13,845 nt of DNA from Accumulibacter sp. (GTDB lineage Bacteria; Pseudomonadota; Gammaproteobacteria; Burkholderiales; Rhodocyclaceae): assembly GCA_031274075.1 (NCBI GenBank), contig JAISQQ010000469.1, forward strand, positions 1 through 13,845, read 5' to 3'. A program made the position numbers and the translations under genes. The notes below the pieces were generated by a model. The model saw nothing but the letters and a program-made list of their open reading frames with translations, did not search any database and was not told the origin of the DNA. How positions within the stretch are numbered: position 1 is the first letter of the stretch; the number at the start of each line of letters is the position of its first letter. Of the stretch, positions 8,457-13,845 are shown in pieces.

Positions 8457-8549
8457 ATGGAATCGATTCTCAAGACTCTCGACGACCTGCATCCCGATCC
8501 CGCGTTCTGGGCGGAGGCGTGGCCCTGGCGATCCCGCCGGGAAGTCTAG
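8457..8549 (+). CDS. Putative Trp-rich leader peptide before trpE
   Basis: This is a 30-codon frame between gph and trpE with three Trp codons close to its end (FWAEAWPWR, residues 17-25), ending in TAG 71 bases before the trpE ATG. Such clustering in a short frame in front of a Trp biosynthesis gene is the pattern of a trpL-type leader. Two RNA pairings could compete: GGGCGG (8509-8514, inside the Trp codons) with CCCGCC (8533-8538), and GCCGGGAA (8536-8543) with TTCCGGC (8557-8563, one bulge). GGGCGGA (8509-8515) can also pair with TCCGCCC (8601-8607), next to the trpE ribosome binding site. No U-run is present, so translational or Rho-dependent control is more likely than an intrinsic attenuator. 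No Shine-Dalgarno is clear. A chance frame is possible. Confidence 0.5.
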   Translation: MESILKTLDDLHPDPAFWAEAWPWRSRREV

Positions 8550-8620: not shown

Positions 8621-10096
8621 ATGAAAGAAGCCGAATTCGATCAGCTCGCCGCTGACGATTACAACCGCATCCCCGTCACCCTGGAAACCTTCGCGGATCT
8701 CGACACTCCGCTCTCGATTTATCTCAAGCTGGCCAACGGCCCGTACAGCTATCTGCTCGAATCCGTGCACGGCGGCGAGCGTTTCGGCCGCTACTCGATC
8801 ATCGGCCTCGCCTGCCCGACGCGAATCGTGGTCAACGGGCGCCAGGTGCTGGTGCTGACCGGCAACCGCATCGCCGAACGCGCCGAGGACGTCGATCCGC
8901 TCGATTTCATCGGCGAGTACATGGCGCGGTTTCGCGCCGCGCCGCTCGCCGGCCTGCCGCGTTTCTGCGGCGGCCTGGTCGGCTGCTTTGGCTACGATAC
9001 GGTGCGCTACATCGAGCCTCGCCTGGAAAAGGGGCGCAAGAAAAACGAGCTGGGCGTGCCCGACATCCTGCTGCTGCTGTCCGAGGAAATCGCGGTCGTC
9101 GACAATATCACCGGCAAGCTGAGCCTGGTCGTTTTCGCCGAACCCGGCGTGCCCGGCGCCTATCAGAAGGCGCGAGCACGGCTAAAAGCGCTGCTCGCCC
9201 GCCTGCGCGAGCAGGTCGCCGTGCCGCCGGAGAAACCGGCCGCTTCGCCGCCGGCCGTCTCGGTGTTCGGAGAAGCGCGTTTCAAGGACGCCGTGCTCAG
9301 GATCAAGCAATACATCACCGACGGCGACATCATGCAGGCCGTCCTCTCCCAGCGCATGAGCAAGGCGTTCGGCGCGAGTCCCCTGGCCCTCTACCGCTCG
9401 CTGCGCTCGCTCAATCCGTCGCCGTACATGTTCTATTTCGACTTCGAGGATTTCCACGTCGTCGGCGCGTCGCCGGAAATCCTGGTGCGTCTCGAAGGCG
9501 ACACGGTAACGGTGCGGCCGATTGCCGGCACGCGCAGGCGCGGCGCCAGCTTCGAGGAAGACCAGGCGCTGGCGGCCGAACTGCTCGCCGACGAGAAGGA
9601 ACGCGCCGAGCACCTGCAACTGCTCGACCTGGGACGCAACGACACCGGCCGCGTGGCGCGGCCCGGCACGGTCAGGCTGACCGAGAAAATGAGCATCGAG
9701 CGCTACTCGCACGTGATGCACCTCGTCTCCAACGTCGAAGGCAAGCTGCAGGCGGGCCTCAGCGCGCTCGACGTGCTCAGGGCCGCTTTTCCGGCGGGCA
9801 CCGTGTCCGGCGCGCCGAAGGTGCGGGCGATGGAGATCATCGACGAACTCGAGCCGACGCCTCGCGGCATCTACGCCGGCGCCGTCGGCTACCTGGGTTT
9901 TCATGGCGACATGGACCTGGCGATCGCCATCCGCACCGCGCTGCTCAAGGACGGCCAACTGCACGTGCAGGCCGGCGGCGGCATCGTCGCCGATTCGCTG
10001 CCCGAGGCGGAATGGCAAGAGACCCAGAACAAGGCGCGCGCGGTGCTGCGCGCCGCCGAACTGGCGGAGCAGGGGCTGGACACGCGGCAGGAATGA
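8621..10096 (+). CDS. trpE: Anthranilate synthase component I
   Basis: The product is a 491-residue TrpE, the chorismate-binding subunit that, with TrpG-supplied ammonia, makes anthranilate and pyruvate, the first committed step of tryptophan synthesis. The N-terminal feedback region has the LLES motif (45-48), and NPSPYMFYF is present, both part of the Trp inhibition site in known TrpE. Catalytic blocks are VGASPEILVR, IAGTRRRG, LGRNDTGRVA, AGTVSGAPKVRAMEII and YAGAVGYLGF. The start at 8621 is supported by GTGGAG 7 bases upstream and by alignment-like similarity of MKEAEFDQLAADDYNRIPV to other TrpE N-termini. The open frame extends upstream but that part is unlikely to be coding. Unusually, trpG does not follow directly: a toxin-antitoxin pair and about 0.5 kb of noncoding DNA intervene. 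Confidence 0.97.
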   Translation: MKEAEFDQLAADDYNRIPVTLETFADLDTPLSIYLKLANGPYSYLLESVHGGERFGRYSIIGLACPTRIVVNGRQVLVLTGNRIAERAEDVDPLDFIGEYMARFRAAPLAGLPRFCGGLVGCFGYDTVRYIEPRLEKGRKKNELGVPDILLLLSEEIAVVDNITGKLSLVVFAEPGVPGAYQKARARLKALLARLREQVAVPPEKPAASPPAVSVFGEARFKDAVLRIKQYITDGDIMQAVLSQRMSKAFGASPLALYRSLRSLNPSPYMFYFDFEDFHVVGASPEILVRLEGDTVTVRPIAGTRRRGASFEEDQALAAELLADEKERAEHLQLLDLGRNDTGRVARPGTVRLTEKMSIERYSHVMHLVSNVEGKLQAGLSALDVLRAAFPAGTVSGAPKVRAMEIIDELEPTPRGIYAGAVGYLGFHGDMDLAIAIRTALLKDGQLHVQAGGGIVADSLPEAEWQETQNKARAVLRAAELAEQGLDTRQE

Positions 10097-10127: not shown

Positions 10128-10532
10128 TCAGAGGAACCCGTAAGCCGCGACCGGGACGGCCAGACGCGGGAAAGCCTTGAGCAGCTTCTTGTCCATGGTG
10201 ACGAGGTTTGCGTCGAGCCGTTTGGCCACGGCGACGAATTCGCAGTCATAGGCCGAACAATCGCTGTCGCGCACCAAGGCCATCACTTCGCGTGACGATA
10301 CTTCGAATTCAAATCCATCAAGCAAGGCTTCCGCTTCACTCTGCAGCGAACAGGCTTGCTCGAAGCCCAGCGCGCCTCGCCGCATATAACCCGCCAGAAT
10401 GTTGCGGAACTCGCTGCGCCATAAAGGCGGAGCGGCCCATTCAGGCTCTCGCCGCATGAGCGCTTCGACCGCGGTGGTAAACTCACCGGGCAGGTACAGG
10501 TAGGCCAGGATATTGGTGTCGACAACGATCAC
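10128..10532 (-). CDS. vapC: PIN-domain toxin, VapC family
   Basis: The product is a 134-residue PIN-domain ribonuclease, the expected size for a type II VapC toxin. The acidic metal-binding residues are in place: D5 in MIVVDTN, E41 in WRSEFRN, D96 in SAYDCEFV and D114 in LVTMDKKLL. VapC toxins cleave tRNA or rRNA and block translation when not bound by antitoxin. Its ATG overlaps the stop codon of the antitoxin gene by four bases (ATGA), so the two are translationally coupled. It is convergent with trpE, ending 31 bases from the trpE stop. The protein looks intact, so the pair may be active. The exact RNA target cannot be deduced. Confidence 0.93.
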   Translation of the reverse strand: MIVVDTNILAYLYLPGEFTTAVEALMRREPEWAAPPLWRSEFRNILAGYMRRGALGFEQACSLQSEAEALLDGFEFEVSSREVMALVRDSDCSAYDCEFVAVAKRLDANLVTMDKKLLKAFPRLAVPVAAYGFL

Positions 10533-10774
10533 TTGCGGCCCGCCCGTTTGGCCAGGTCGATGTCTTCGGCCTTGAACGCTCCTTCCGGCAAGCCCGCGCG
10601 TAGTTCCCGGGCACGCGCCAGCCGTTCGCCGACCGCGGCGTGCTTGGGCAAGAGCACAGTCTCCAGGCAGACGATGGCTTCGCTGTTCAAGCTGCGGCGA
10701 TGCCGTTCAGCGGCGGCCTTCAAGTGTTCGTACACGGCATCGGGAATATTCTTCAAAGTCACTGAGCTTGGCAT
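10529..10774 (-). CDS. vapB: VapB/FitA-type ribbon-helix-helix antitoxin
   Basis: The product is an 81-residue antitoxin. The N-terminal about 40 residues (SVTLKNIPDAVYEHLKAAAERHRRSLNSEAI) fit a FitA-like ribbon-helix-helix DNA-binding fold. The C-terminal half (RARELRAGLPEGAFKAEDID) would wrap around and neutralise the toxin. The start at 10774 (MPSSVTL) is chosen for its GGAG 5 bases upstream; an in-frame ATG at 10804 would add 10 residues unlike the family. The gene overlaps vapC by 4 bases. A promoter with a palindrome over its -10 box lies immediately upstream, fitting autoregulation by the VapBC complex. Confidence 0.9.
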   Translation of the reverse strand: MPSSVTLKNIPDAVYEHLKAAAERHRRSLNSEAIVCLETVLLPKHAAVGERLARARELRAGLPEGAFKAEDIDLAKRAGRK

Positions 10775-10810
10775 GCCGACTCCAATTCCAATAGATGAAA
10801 CCAAAACGGT

Positions 10811-10842
10811 TCCATTATGGAGTTCCGGAGGGGCATAAGCAA
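10811..10842 (-). promoter_or_regulatory. vapBC promoter with overlapping palindromic operator
   Basis: On the minus strand TTGCTT (complement of 10837-10842) and CATAAT (complement of 10814-10819) are separated by exactly 17 bases, a good sigma-70 arrangement. The -10 box lies inside the 11-base palindrome TCCATTATGGA (10811-10821). This places transcription start about 30 bases before the vapB ATG and gives the antitoxin complex a site to occlude the promoter. Confidence 0.55.
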
Positions 10843-10847
10843 GCGGT

Positions 10848-10946
10848 CAGGGTGACAGGTGGCGGGTGACAGGAGGCAGGTAACAGTAAGCTGTGGCGCT
10901 TCGCGCCAGTAACCCTTGTCACCTGTCCCCTGTCACCCGCCACCTG
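10848..10946. repeat. Inverted heptamer-array element, copy 3
   Basis: Left-arm heptamers (CAGGTGG, CGGGTGA, CAGGAGG, CAGGTAA, from 10856) face inverted counterparts ending at 10946. The outer 18 bases of the arms (10856-10873 and 10929-10946, CCTGTCACCCGCCACCTG on the right) are perfectly complementary. The centre is TGGCGCTTCGCGCCA (10894-10908), with core bases GGCGCTTCGCGCC identical to copy 1. It lies between the vapB promoter and the putative leader upstream of trpG. No U-run follows on either strand. Confidence 0.88.
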
Positions 10947-10990
10947 AAATGTGATACGCTACGCAACTGGCTCGCGGACGATCCTGTCCG

Positions 10991-10996
10991 TATACT
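10991..10996 (+). promoter_or_regulatory. Possible -10 box for the trpGDC leader transcript
   Basis: TATACT (5/6 to TATAAT) lies 27 bases before the ATG of the Trp-containing small frame, giving a leader of about 20 bases if used. The -35 (CTGGCT or TGGCTC near 10967-10973) is poor. Upstream of the box is a CGGAC-gatcct-GTCCG inverted repeat (10975-10990), which could be an operator. Confidence 0.35.
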
Positions 10997-11023
10997 GCCA
11001 AATTTGGATTTCCAGAGCTTCAC

Positions 11024-11077
11024 ATGACCTTTATTCTTTCGATTGACGCAATTCAGTGGTGGCGCTTCCTCCAATAG
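11024..11077 (+). CDS. Putative trp leader peptide upstream of trpGDC
   Basis: This 17-codon frame reads MTFILSIDAIQWWRFLQ and ends in TAG. Tandem Trp codons at positions 12-13 followed by Arg resemble the WWR near the end of the E. coli trpL peptide. The Trp codons run straight into a 7-bp stem-loop (CGCTTCC at 11063-11069 with GGAAGCG at 11077-11083) whose loop carries the stop codon, so a ribosome stalled at Trp would prevent it from forming. More stem-loops and a T7-tailed GC hairpin follow before trpG. By the attenuation model, uncharged tRNA-Trp would stall the ribosome and favour read-through into trpGDC. The ribosome binding site is weak (AGAG). The 405-base distance to trpG is longer than usual for an attenuator. 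Confidence 0.62.
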   Translation: MTFILSIDAIQWWRFLQ

Positions 11078-11162
11078 GAAGCGGCATGTTGTTGCGGTCT
11101 CGAACCGCGCCTTGTCGCCGTACCGGTAGACAAGGCCAGGTCAGATGGCTCTCCGGCACGGC
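11063..11162 (+). ncRNA. Structured leader RNA with alternative pairings
   Basis: Three consecutive hairpins can form. They are 11063-11069 with 11077-11083 (7 bp), GCGGT (11094-11098) with ACCGC (11104-11108), and GCCTTGTC (11109-11116) with GACAAGGC (11129-11136, 8 bp perfect). The loop of the third, GCCGTACCGG (11117-11126), is complementary at 9 of 10 positions to CCGGCACGGC (11153-11162), so a pseudoknot or mutually exclusive fold is possible. This fits a switching leader RNA between the Trp-codon frame and trpG. Foldings were judged by eye only. Confidence 0.5.
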
Positions 11163-11163
11163 G

Positions 11164-11426
11164 GCTCCAAACGATGGAGGATGTCCGATGTCCCTGACCC
11201 GATTTCCCTTGACAAATTGTTTCCGCTTTGCCCGCCGGGGCGACGGCTGGCCGGCGAGTACCCTGGACGAGGGGGCTTGCGGGTGCCTGTCGCCTGCGGA
11301 GAATTCCTGGCGGCGCTTTTTTTCGTCTGGCCCGAGCGCCGCCGCGTTTCGCCTCTTTCTCTGCCGCCTTCAGCCGGTTTGGATCACGCGGGCGGCCTGT
11401 TTCAGCGCCGATGTGAGCAACGATGC
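11164..11426. other. Noncoding stretch without a recognisable gene
   Basis: Between the structured leader and the promoter-like site before trpG, several overlapping open frames of about 100-140 codons exist on both strands, but none resembles a known protein or has a clear ribosome binding site. One plus-strand frame ends at 11478, 4 bases before the trpG ATG, which could be chance. Besides the T7 hairpin I see no further signal. It could be leader RNA, a decayed gene, or DNA brought in with vapBC. Confidence 0.4.
11283..11323 (+). terminator. GC hairpin followed by seven T's in the trpG leader
   Basis: GTCGCC (11289-11294) can pair with GGCGGC (11309-11314), or GTGCC (11283-11287) with GGCGC (11312-11316), and TTTTTTT follows at 11317-11323. 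This is the best intrinsic-terminator candidate upstream of trpG. A competing perfect 8-bp pairing, GGCGGCGC (11309-11316) with GCGCCGCC (11336-11343), puts the T-run in the loop and would break the terminator stem. Confidence 0.45.
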
Positions 11427-11455
11427 CTGCCATGGAGCGTGGTTCTCAATATATA
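11427..11455 (+). promoter_or_regulatory. Possible trpG-proximal promoter
   Basis: CTGCCA (11427-11432), a 17-base spacer and TATATA (11450-11455) form a moderate sigma-70-like promoter 27 bases before the trpG ATG; overlapping TATAAG (11452-11457) is an alternative -10. The AT-rich patch stands out against the GC-rich surroundings. It would supply trpGDC transcription independent of trpE and bypass the leader. Confidence 0.4.
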
Positions 11456-11482
11456 AGTTTTTGAAATCAAAGGGTTGATGAA

Positions 11483-12052: not shown

Positions 12053-13081
12053 ATGATTACTCCACAAGAAGCGCTGCAACGCACCATCGAACACCGCGAA
12101 ATCTTCTACGACGAAATGCTCGACCTGATGCGCCAGATCATGCGCGGCGAGATTTCGCCGCTGATGACCTCGGCCATCACCACCGGCCTGCGGGTCAAGA
12201 AGGAGACCATCGGCGAAATCACCGCCGCGGCGCAGGTGATGCGCGAGATGTCCACGCGCATCGAGGTGGCCGACAAGGCCAATTTCGTCGACATCGTGGG
12301 CACTGGCGGCGACGGATCGGGCACCTTCAACATCTCGACGACCTCGATGTTCGTCGTCGCGGCGGCGGGCGCCAAGGTCGCCAAGCACGGTGGACGCGGC
12401 GTGTCCTCCAAATCCGGCAGCGCCGACGTGCTGGAGGCGTTGGGCGTCAACATCAGCCTCGCGCCGCGGCAGATCGAAGCCTGCCTGGCGGCGACCGGCA
12501 TCGGCTTCATGTTCGCCCCGAACCACCACGCGGCGATGAAAAACGTAGCTCCCGTGCGGCGCGAGATGGGCGTGCGCACCCTGTTCAACATCCTCGGCCC
12601 GCTGACCAATCCGGCCGGCGCGCCGAATTCGCTGATCGGCGTCTTTCATCCCGATCTCGTCGGCATTCTCGTGCGCGTCATGGAACGGCTCGGCGGCGGT
12701 CACGTGATGGTGGTCTACGGCAAGGACGGCATGGACGAAGTGTCGCTCGGCGCGGCGACGATGGTCGGCGAACTGAAGAACGGCAAGGTCGGCGAATACG
12801 AAATCCACCCCGAGGATTTCGGTCTGCGCATGGCTTCCAACCGCTCCCTGCACGTCGACGACGCGGCGGAATCGAAGCAAATGGTGCTCTCGGTGCTCGA
12901 CAATACCGCCGGAACGCCGCTTGAAATCGTCGTCTTCAACGCGGGCACGGCGCTCTACGCCGCCAATCGGGTCGAATCCATCGGCGCCGGCATCGCGCTG
13001 GCGCGCGAAACCCTCGCCAGCGGCGCGGCGCGCGCCAAATTCGACGAGTTCCTGCGTTTCACGCAAGAGTGCGCGGCATGA
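12053..13081 (+). CDS. trpD: Anthranilate phosphoribosyltransferase
   Basis: The product is a 342-residue enzyme joining anthranilate and phosphoribosyl pyrophosphate to give N-(5-phosphoribosyl)anthranilate. The PRPP-binding glycine loop [14 protein letters not shown] spans 83-96, followed by [21 protein letters not shown] near 111-131, then [35 protein letters not shown], the conserved anthranilate-binding segment. Length is standard for a stand-alone TrpD not fused to TrpG. The ribosome binding site GAGG overlaps the end of trpG, whose stop is 6 bases away. Its own TGA overlaps the ATG of trpC (ATGA). This indicates tight translational coupling in a trpGDC unit. Confidence 0.97.
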
Positions 13082-13845
13082 GCGCGGCCAGCGGTCCGCC
13101 GGACATCCTGCGGCGGATTCTCGCCGTCAAGCGGGAAGAGATCGCCGAGGCGCGGGCGGAAACACCGCTGGCCACCGTGCGCGGGCAAGCCGAGGCGCAG
13201 CCCGCGCCGCGCGATTTCCTGGGCGCCATCCAAAGCCGGATCGCCGCCGGGAAAGCCGCGGTGATCGCCGAGATCAAGAAAGCCAGTCCGTCGAAAGGCG
13301 TGATCCGCGCCGATTTCCAGCCCGCCGGAATCGCCGCCGATTACGCGGCGCACGGCGCGGCCTGCCTGTCCGTACTCACCGACCGCCAGTTCTTCCAGGG
13401 CGCGCCCGCCTTCCTGCGCGACGCGCGCGCCGCCTGCGCACTGCCGGTGCTGCGCAAGGACTTCCTGGTCGACCCGTATCAGGTCTACGAAGCCCGCGCC
13501 CTGGGCGCCGACGCCATCCTGCTGATCGCCGCCGCGCTCGATCCGGCGCGCATGCGGGATCTCGAAGCCATCGCCCAGGGACTGGGCATGGCGGTGCTCG
13601 TCGAAGTCCATGACCGGAACGAACTCGACCAGGCCCTGCAACTGGCGACGCCGCTACTCGGCATCAACAACCGCGACCTGCGCAGCTTCAAGGTATCCCT
13701 GCAAACCACGCTCGGCCTGCTGCCGCAGGTTCCCTCCGGGCGGACCGTGGTCAGCGAAAGCGGCATCCTCACCGCCGCCGACGTCGCCCTGATGCGCCGC
13801 AACGGCGTCAACGCCTTCCTCGTCGGCGAAGCCTTCATGCGCCAG
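13078..13845 (+). CDS. trpC: Indole-3-glycerol phosphate synthase, 3' end cut off
   Basis: The product shows 256 residues and no stop before the right edge; family length is about 260-270, so only a few residues are missing. It is a TIM-barrel enzyme turning 1-(2-carboxyphenylamino)-deoxyribulose phosphate into indole-3-glycerol phosphate. Motifs are [12 protein letters not shown] near 63-74 (catalytic E65 and K67 region), [21 protein letters not shown] with catalytic K127, [18 protein letters not shown] and VVSESGI. It starts at 13078 with a 4-base overlap on trpD. It is a stand-alone TrpC, with no sign of fusion to TrpF in the visible part. Confidence 0.96.

Follow-up and report, generated by a model that had tools for sequence, protein, structure and literature searches.

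A predicted tryptophan leader upstream of trpG in an Accumulibacter genome and its family in other betaproteobacteria

The trpGDC half of the split trp cluster studied here is preceded by a putative Trp leader element of its own, which belongs to a family that stands before trpG in other betaproteobacteria. The element lies in what we call the window, the whole 13,845-nt stretch of Accumulibacter DNA that was analysed, and it has all the traits of the trpG-leader family: a match to the model R1, a WWR peptide, the helices P1 to P5, a Shine-Dalgarno sequence with its start codon, and trpG downstream. A first-pass annotation had proposed a Trp leader peptide that serves trpGDC as an element apart from trpE, and this looks right. 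Of the 56 elements of the trpG type, 54 precede a complete trpG. We consider it rather probable that the leader is a ribosome-sensing Trp attenuator of trpGDC, which works through a ribosome-binding site further along in place of an intrinsic terminator, or more than through one. We infer the Trp response, the translational coupling, and a role of Rho, and the direction of the switch (Trp shortage turns trpGDC on) is assumed.

Gene arrangement and the leader in the window

Among the genes of the window are those of a phosphoglycolate phosphatase, trpE, and a PIN toxin/FitA-like antitoxin pair, which lies on the opposite strand; after a gap come trpG, trpD, and trpC.

8457..8549, + strand: trpE's own Trp leader peptide, MESILKTLDDLHPDPAFWAEAWPWRSRREV, followed by a stop codon; the same type stands before trpE in congeners
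8621..10096, + strand: trpE, anthranilate synthase component I (TIGR00564 above the cut-off, with a query that began one codon upstream of the ATG)
10128..10804, - strand: genes of a PIN-domain toxin and a FitA-like antitoxin, between trpE and trpG (PF01850 and PF22513 above the cut-off)
10851..10946, no strand given: dispersed palindromic repeat, with dozens of partial copies in the same genome
11483..12046, + strand: trpG (TIGR00566 above the cut-off)
12053..13081, + strand: trpD (TIGR01245 above the cut-off)
13078..13845, + strand: trpC, which extends past the end of the window (PF00218)

The genome of the window is a 474-contig assembly that is 88.7% complete. TrpG of the window is 92% identical to that of G004, a genome of the same genus, and the contig therefore belongs in that genus, with the leader as the odd piece. 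The palindromic repeat (GGTGACAGGTGGC...) has weak matches in congeners too.

The element before trpG is made up of the following parts.

10991..10996, + strand: -10-like hexamer TATACT, 27 nt upstream of the leader ATG, a consensus match only
11024..11077, + strand: leader peptide MTFILSIDAIQWWRFLQ, with ATG at 11024, UGG-UGG at 11057-11062, and the stop codon TAG at 11075-11077
11063..11083, + strand: P1 hairpin across the leader stop codon (CGCTTCC-TCCAATA-GGAAGCG), with extended pairing up to the Trp codons
11093..11109, + strand: P2 hairpin
11109..11136, + strand: P3 hairpin, located where elements of the tRNA-synthetase type have their terminator, here without a U-run
11114..11126, + strand: 5' arm of P4, which overlaps P3, so that the two are mutually exclusive
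11153..11165, + strand: 3' arm of P4
11165..11179, + strand: P5, in which CUCC (11165-11168) is able to pair with the Shine-Dalgarno sequence GGAG (11176-11179)
11188..11478, + strand: ORF2, 96 codons, with its stop 4 nt upstream of trpG; the start is placed by the element

The 17-codon frame with tandem Trp codons and the hairpin over its stop codon, both noted in the first-pass annotation, were confirmed at 11024-11077 and 11063-11083. By itself, the sole short WW frame in the window is not strong evidence. ATG frames of 8 to 35 codons with WW, counted on both strands of the 13.8-kb window, numbered 1 against 0.33±0.60 in 60 whole-window shuffles. Terminator-like sites numbered 1 against 1.0±0.9 expected in 851 bases, the P1 hairpin alone was unremarkable, and the fold z-score of 11000-11340 was only -1.67. 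A chance WW frame beside a chance hairpin would agree with these figures, both in the 0.33 frames expected per window and in a hairpin frequency like that of the shuffles. However, independent relatives stand before the same gene, and this conservation has already refuted a coincidence, which we find hardly credible. The leader is above chance because the frame, the hairpin, and about 110 bases beyond them recur before trpG in other betaproteobacteria. ORF2 of the window matched no Pfam family. A GC stretch followed by T7 at approximately 11289-11320, weighed by eye as a possible terminator, was dropped, as it was absent from the terminator scan.

Distribution of the leader in other betaproteobacteria

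The stretches before trpG were scanned in the best 80 of 588 genome-contig loci and in 29 genome loci. Among the leaders that the scan gave, MTRTASTNIALWWRFQ (L069) and MTCAPTFTTQWWRFQ (L092, from Verticiella sediminum, Alcaligenaceae) resemble each other very closely; other Trp-rich frames also lie before trpG, e.g., those of L031 and L101. The exact P1 pattern is matched in 5 of 399 genomes of the order, the window included, and all five matches lie before trpG. The model R1, which uses sequence only and covers 11024-11195, was built from seven elements including the window; the window's score of 116 bits therefore follows by construction, which is not the case for the new matches. At E <= 1e-3, R1 found 13 of the 399 order genomes, and the six strong matches all stand before trpG. 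In the family of G241, it matched 51 of 268 genomes and 17 of 43 genera. We infer that this family includes Verticiella (Alcaligenaceae), because L171 is identical to L092; the two agree over 2200 of 2200 bases and are probably one organism.

The trpG-type set comprises 56 elements, namely, the family matches together with L069, L092, L145, and the window. A complete trpG lies downstream of all but two of these, and of 51 of the 53 whose detection did not depend on trpG (L069, L092, and the window came to light via that gene); the remaining two elements adjoin truncated trpG starts. The place before trpG, which the first-pass annotation called unusual, is thus not without precedent, and attenuation of trpGDC in Pseudomonas putida is already in print, to judge by the title of Olekhnovich and Gussin 2001 (reference list of PMC8297930). 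Duplicate rows (L069 = L163 and L092 = L171 within the element) were kept in the lists, merged in the covariation counts, and removed from the non-redundant ORF2 set. The weak R1 matches L156-L160, L229, and L230 were dropped, since the scanned stretch held no short WW frame. In L200 (G452), the leader is followed by a truncated trpG start, the next 1.5 kb hold no complete trpG, and a transposase-like frame was seen nearby by eye.

Trp-bearing leaders also occur in betaproteobacteria before genes that resemble those of Trp-tRNA synthetases, in L153, L154, L155, and L212 (...YYYWWRH, ...LYWWRFP, ...YYKWRP, and ...KRWWRSA, respectively). L153, L154, and L155 are among the weak R1 matches in the order. 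The synthetase-like gene of L154 was assigned by the Pfam class I W/Y family, that of L155 by its 70% identity to L154, and that of L153 by eye. A clear U-run follows the hairpin in L154 and L155.

Conserved anatomy and covariation

All 56 trpG-type elements have a peptide that closes with WWR plus two further residues (in the window, three), immediately at the first hairpin; the family ending is WWR(F/L/S/P)x before the stop codon. In 31 of 58 rows, the 80 nt upstream hold a -10-like hexamer with at least five of six matching bases, compared with 7.7±2.4 after shuffling. The share of cells that are paired in the 56 trpG rows is 99% for P1, 88% for P2, 88% for P3, 94% for P4, and 97% for P5. 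Competing helices, which the first-pass annotation named as a trait of trpL-type attenuators, do follow the leader: P3 and P4 overlap from 11114 on, and each has pairs changed on both sides. The window has a U-A-type pair in P3 where most elements have C-G, and one P5 pair has changed jointly on its two sides in L207 and L208.

Covariation was counted over 58 rows, 56 of them distinct and two of the synthetase type, and the shuffles used for comparison ignore kinship. For P1, P2, P4, and P5 together, 32 cells are changed on both sides against 8.0±2.5 in shuffles, and for P3 and P5, 28 against 9.9±2.4; in neither case did any of 500 shuffles reach as high. Two of the five measures were unremarkable for P3 and P5: 495 of 500 shuffles scored as high in further pair types, and 28 of 500 did so in the number of pairs that had changed on both sides. 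When the 3' partners of P1, P2, P4, and P5 were slid by -3 columns, the both-side cells were nearly as many (30 vs 32), but only 43% of cells were paired, compared with 94%, and the covariation score was 0.036, compared with 0.129. The covariation of P1 to P5 is thus support for the predicted helices and not proof of them.

Output of the leader

A start codon follows the Shine-Dalgarno sequence by 4 to 10 nt in 58 of 58 rows (45 ATG, 11 GTG, and 2 TTG), in a search that allowed 12 positions. In most loci this start opens ORF2. In six (L167, L175, L188, L206, L207, and L208) it is trpG's own start or lies at most two codons from it, and in L189 the frame from the element start is fused to trpG. 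The stop of ORF2 falls within -12 to +30 nt of trpG, a range chosen after the distances were seen, in 37 of 48 loci and 29 of 37 non-redundant ones. Among the 37, the other frames give 5 and 8 such loci, and 300 shuffles give 11.6±2.1 (maximum, 17).

The first-pass annotation had likened the element to trpL of E. coli, but the intrinsic-terminator scheme of E. coli does not apply here: no U-run follows the stop-codon hairpin, and none follows P3. Classical transcription attenuation would make P3 the terminator, with a weak U-run being sufficient, and stalling at the Trp codons would let the 3' arm of P1 pair with the 5' arm of P3 as an antiterminator. This pairing is possible in 98.2% of cells, although it hardly varies, and a -3 slide gives more both-side changes (21 vs 11). 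The tRNA-synthetase genes are preceded by the same layout, and there a U-run comes after P3 in L154 and L155 (5 and 6 T in 8 nt). However, the corresponding 8 nt hold only 0 to 4 T across the 56 trpG-type elements and 1 in the window, and a plain terminator would not need the conserved P4, P5, Shine-Dalgarno sequence, and start position. We therefore regard classical attenuation as unlikely. The lack of a U-run, the retention of the Shine-Dalgarno sequence and start, and the position of the ORF2 end together suggest that the output kept by selection looks like translation start, reached directly or through ORF2.

Such an output could also act through Rho, if the switch determines whether ORF2 is translated and, when it is not, Rho ends transcription within the C-rich stretch of ORF2 ahead of trpG. 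C exceeds G between the ORF2 start and trpG in 35 of the 37 non-redundant loci (means, 0.381 vs 0.246), and ORF2 extends up to trpG. Nevertheless, six loci lack ORF2, that of the window is not C-rich (C/G of 0.93), and composition cannot prove Rho sites; Rho-dependent attenuation is a possibility that we hold with some doubt.

In equilibrium folding, which is a weak test for a co-transcriptional switch, the opening energy of the start region (mean of 56 elements) was 9.7 kcal/mol with no ribosome, 9.1 kcal/mol with a ribosome at the Trp codons, and 8.8 kcal/mol with a ribosome at the stop codon, which is no consistent switch and counts against the preferred reading. The downstream pairing of the P3 5' arm in the same three states was 0.92, 0.87, and 0.94, with little change.

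Proposed mechanism

For the preferred reading, a ribosome-sensing attenuator acting on a ribosome-binding site, we propose the following course. Transcription would start shortly upstream of 11024, and the ribosome on the leader would either pause at the two Trp codons, when charged tRNA-Trp is low, or run to the stop codon. Its position would determine whether P1 forms and hence whether the 3' arm of P1 is free to pair with UGUCGC/UGCCGC, a pairing that would decide between the exclusive helices P3 and P4. P4 would take up the strand that, together with P5, covers the Shine-Dalgarno sequence of the start at 11188. In the window that start begins ORF2, and in some genomes it is trpG's own. With the ORF2 stop 4 nt upstream of trpG, translation would be handed to trpG by coupling, and an untranslated ORF2 may expose the RNA to Rho.

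Close relatives and the origin of the leader

The leader at trpG was at first placed there rather than at trpE. This part of the first-pass annotation has to be corrected, since trpE has a predicted Trp leader too, one of a different type (8457-8549 in the window). This type mostly reads ...HLEPAFWAEAWPWRxC... in congeners and was present in nine of nine usable loci (ten were fetched, one of which was too short).

Twenty-seven congeners, many of whose genomes are incomplete, were searched for trpG at E <= 1e-60; 18 gave a trpG locus and nine gave none. The gap between trpE and trpG in the 18 loci is 13-36 nt in six, 187 nt in one, and 490-504 nt in six, and in five the fetched stretch held no trpE. 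The insert of about 490 nt in L009, L010, L012, L015, L019, and L022 has a PF13366 frame (tested in L009 only, the others being alike by eye) and is flanked by short repeats; the trpE-trpG junction seems to be a favoured insertion place in congeners. L004 and L013 share a similar stretch in the last 150 nt before trpG (GCCGTCAGCACCG and AGCGGGTATC), with no trpE in the fetched flank and no WW frame.

DNA of 10780-11482 had no convincing counterpart in the 27 congeners, the matches listed being short or lying in the dispersed repeat. Model R1 gave one weak match in the other congeners (G010, E of 3.3e-4), without a WW frame, and no trpG leader of the window's kind. The leader was probably acquired from outside in the organism of the window, because none was found in the 27 congeners. 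The first-pass annotation had looked to close relatives for conservation; on that score the frame finds no support, but the element is kept in a distant family, so that the comparison misleads. An acquired element would place the detached trpGDC half under Trp control of its own, next to the unlike leader of trpE.

Transfer could also have left a relic, with an intact sequence that has no effect in this host and trpGDC driven from elsewhere. The lack of the leader in the congeners would fit a relic, as would the composition of ORF2, which is unlike most others, and the result of a scan of the window stretch, which found no full promoter consensus upstream of the leader. In contrast, the window has the conserved parts, among them the U-A-type pair in P3 and the ORF2 stop just before trpG, and a relic seems to us quite improbable.

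Mobile elements that carry the leader

Two elements were found in G507. L199 precedes a complete trpG and adjoins a ParA-like protein (below the cut-offs), a TIGR03764 ParB and a TIGR03761 protein (both above the cut-off), and the topoisomerase III of an integrative conjugative element (ICE), as in ICEs of the PFGI-1/PFL_4669 type; a look-alike gene row is present in G473. L174, whose peptide resembles those of L167 and L175 (same genus label, g170), is followed by the first trpG codons, a break, and a tyrosine integrase. Sixteen bases, TGATGCTAGACAACTA, are common at the trpG break in G507. As a side observation, a PFL_4669-type ICE appears to sit in the first trpG codons and to carry a Trp leader in G507 (L174/L228 and L199/L226) and in G473 (L227), and in G507 a native-like leader appears displaced to the integrase side. 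To our knowledge, no PFGI-1/PFL_4669-type ICE has been said to carry an amino-acid leader, and the titles and abstract starts of the literature surveyed name no ICE with trpG as its target.

L069 (record KLAP190) and L163 (G473) adjoin the same kind of gene row. Over a stretch that begins 1500 nt upstream of the leader and ends 15 nt into trpG, they are equal at 1964 of 1967 bases. Past this stretch only 231 of 300 bases are equal, and the TrpG proteins share 125 of 188 residues (66%); the identity to TrpG of the window is 146 of 187 for L069 and 118 of 187 for L163. Near-identical DNA that ends 15 bases into trpG, with divergent TrpG beyond, suggests that the element brought the leader. Judged by this DNA, the two hosts hold one and the same element, which includes the leader, ORF2, and the first trpG codons; both are draft genomes, which leaves some chance of misassembly.

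By eye, the element nearest to that of the window is L180 (G592): ORF2 begins with MSLTRFP in both, and the score is 39 against a shuffle maximum of 37. A search of the window's own genome, run without a positive control, found no match to an ICE-side protein. An ICE origin of the end of the window's ORF2 (VSNDACHGA vs VCNxVCNGA) was rejected, as scores of 33 and 36 against shuffle maxima of 39 and 37 are not significant.

We put at about even the chance of the following account as a whole. ICEs that insert in the first trpG codons would carry a complete Trp leader at their trpG-side end, swap the trpG leader of the host, and spread it between hosts, including an Alcaligenaceae-type leader into the organism of the window, and the leader would be a relay attenuator (Trp peptide, switch, ORF2, and trpG) without a terminator.

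Relation to known systems and significance

The trp leader of E. coli, trpL, encodes a short peptide with tandem Trp codons and has a first hairpin that reaches these codons and exclusive helices downstream. The trpG leader shares the short tandem-Trp peptide, the reach of the first hairpin to the Trp codons, and the exclusive helices. However, it has no U-run terminator, has an additional ribosome-binding-site helix and ORF2, and stands before trpG and not trpE. Rfam 15 gave no match at the gathering score, and at E <= 5 the window stretch matched only two sRNA families, neither of which is Trp_leader. From titles and abstract starts in the open-licence literature, which leaves most older journals outside its coverage, we recognised no prior description of the trpG leader.

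In Pseudomonas putida and P. aeruginosa, going by the title of the 2001 paper, a separate trpGDC attenuation exists beside trpE, as in the window, and premature 3' ends are reported in PMC8297930. The leaders found here before tRNA-synthetase genes are betaproteobacterial and have a layout like that of the trpG leader, whereas the one upstream of trpS2 in Streptomyces avermitilis is reported as a predicted classical attenuator (PMC1262725). The SAM-II riboswitch of metA in S. meliloti is similar to the trpG leader in that the regulatory RNA contains a Shine-Dalgarno sequence that controls translation from a start lying farther downstream (PMC9373788). It differs in being a ligand riboswitch, with no leader peptide in its abstract and a second start in frame, whereas ORF2 is a separate frame.

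Leader peptides and the attenuation of trpGDC are thus known kinds, and the Trp leader family before trpG is absent from Rfam 15. To the known Trp leaders, the family would add a conserved output that consists of a ribosome-binding site and a coupling frame and not of a terminator. The split trp cluster of the window carries two unlike predicted Trp leaders, one for each half. An element inserted in the start of trpG may be a vehicle that moves regulatory leaders between hosts, in which one leader would replace another.
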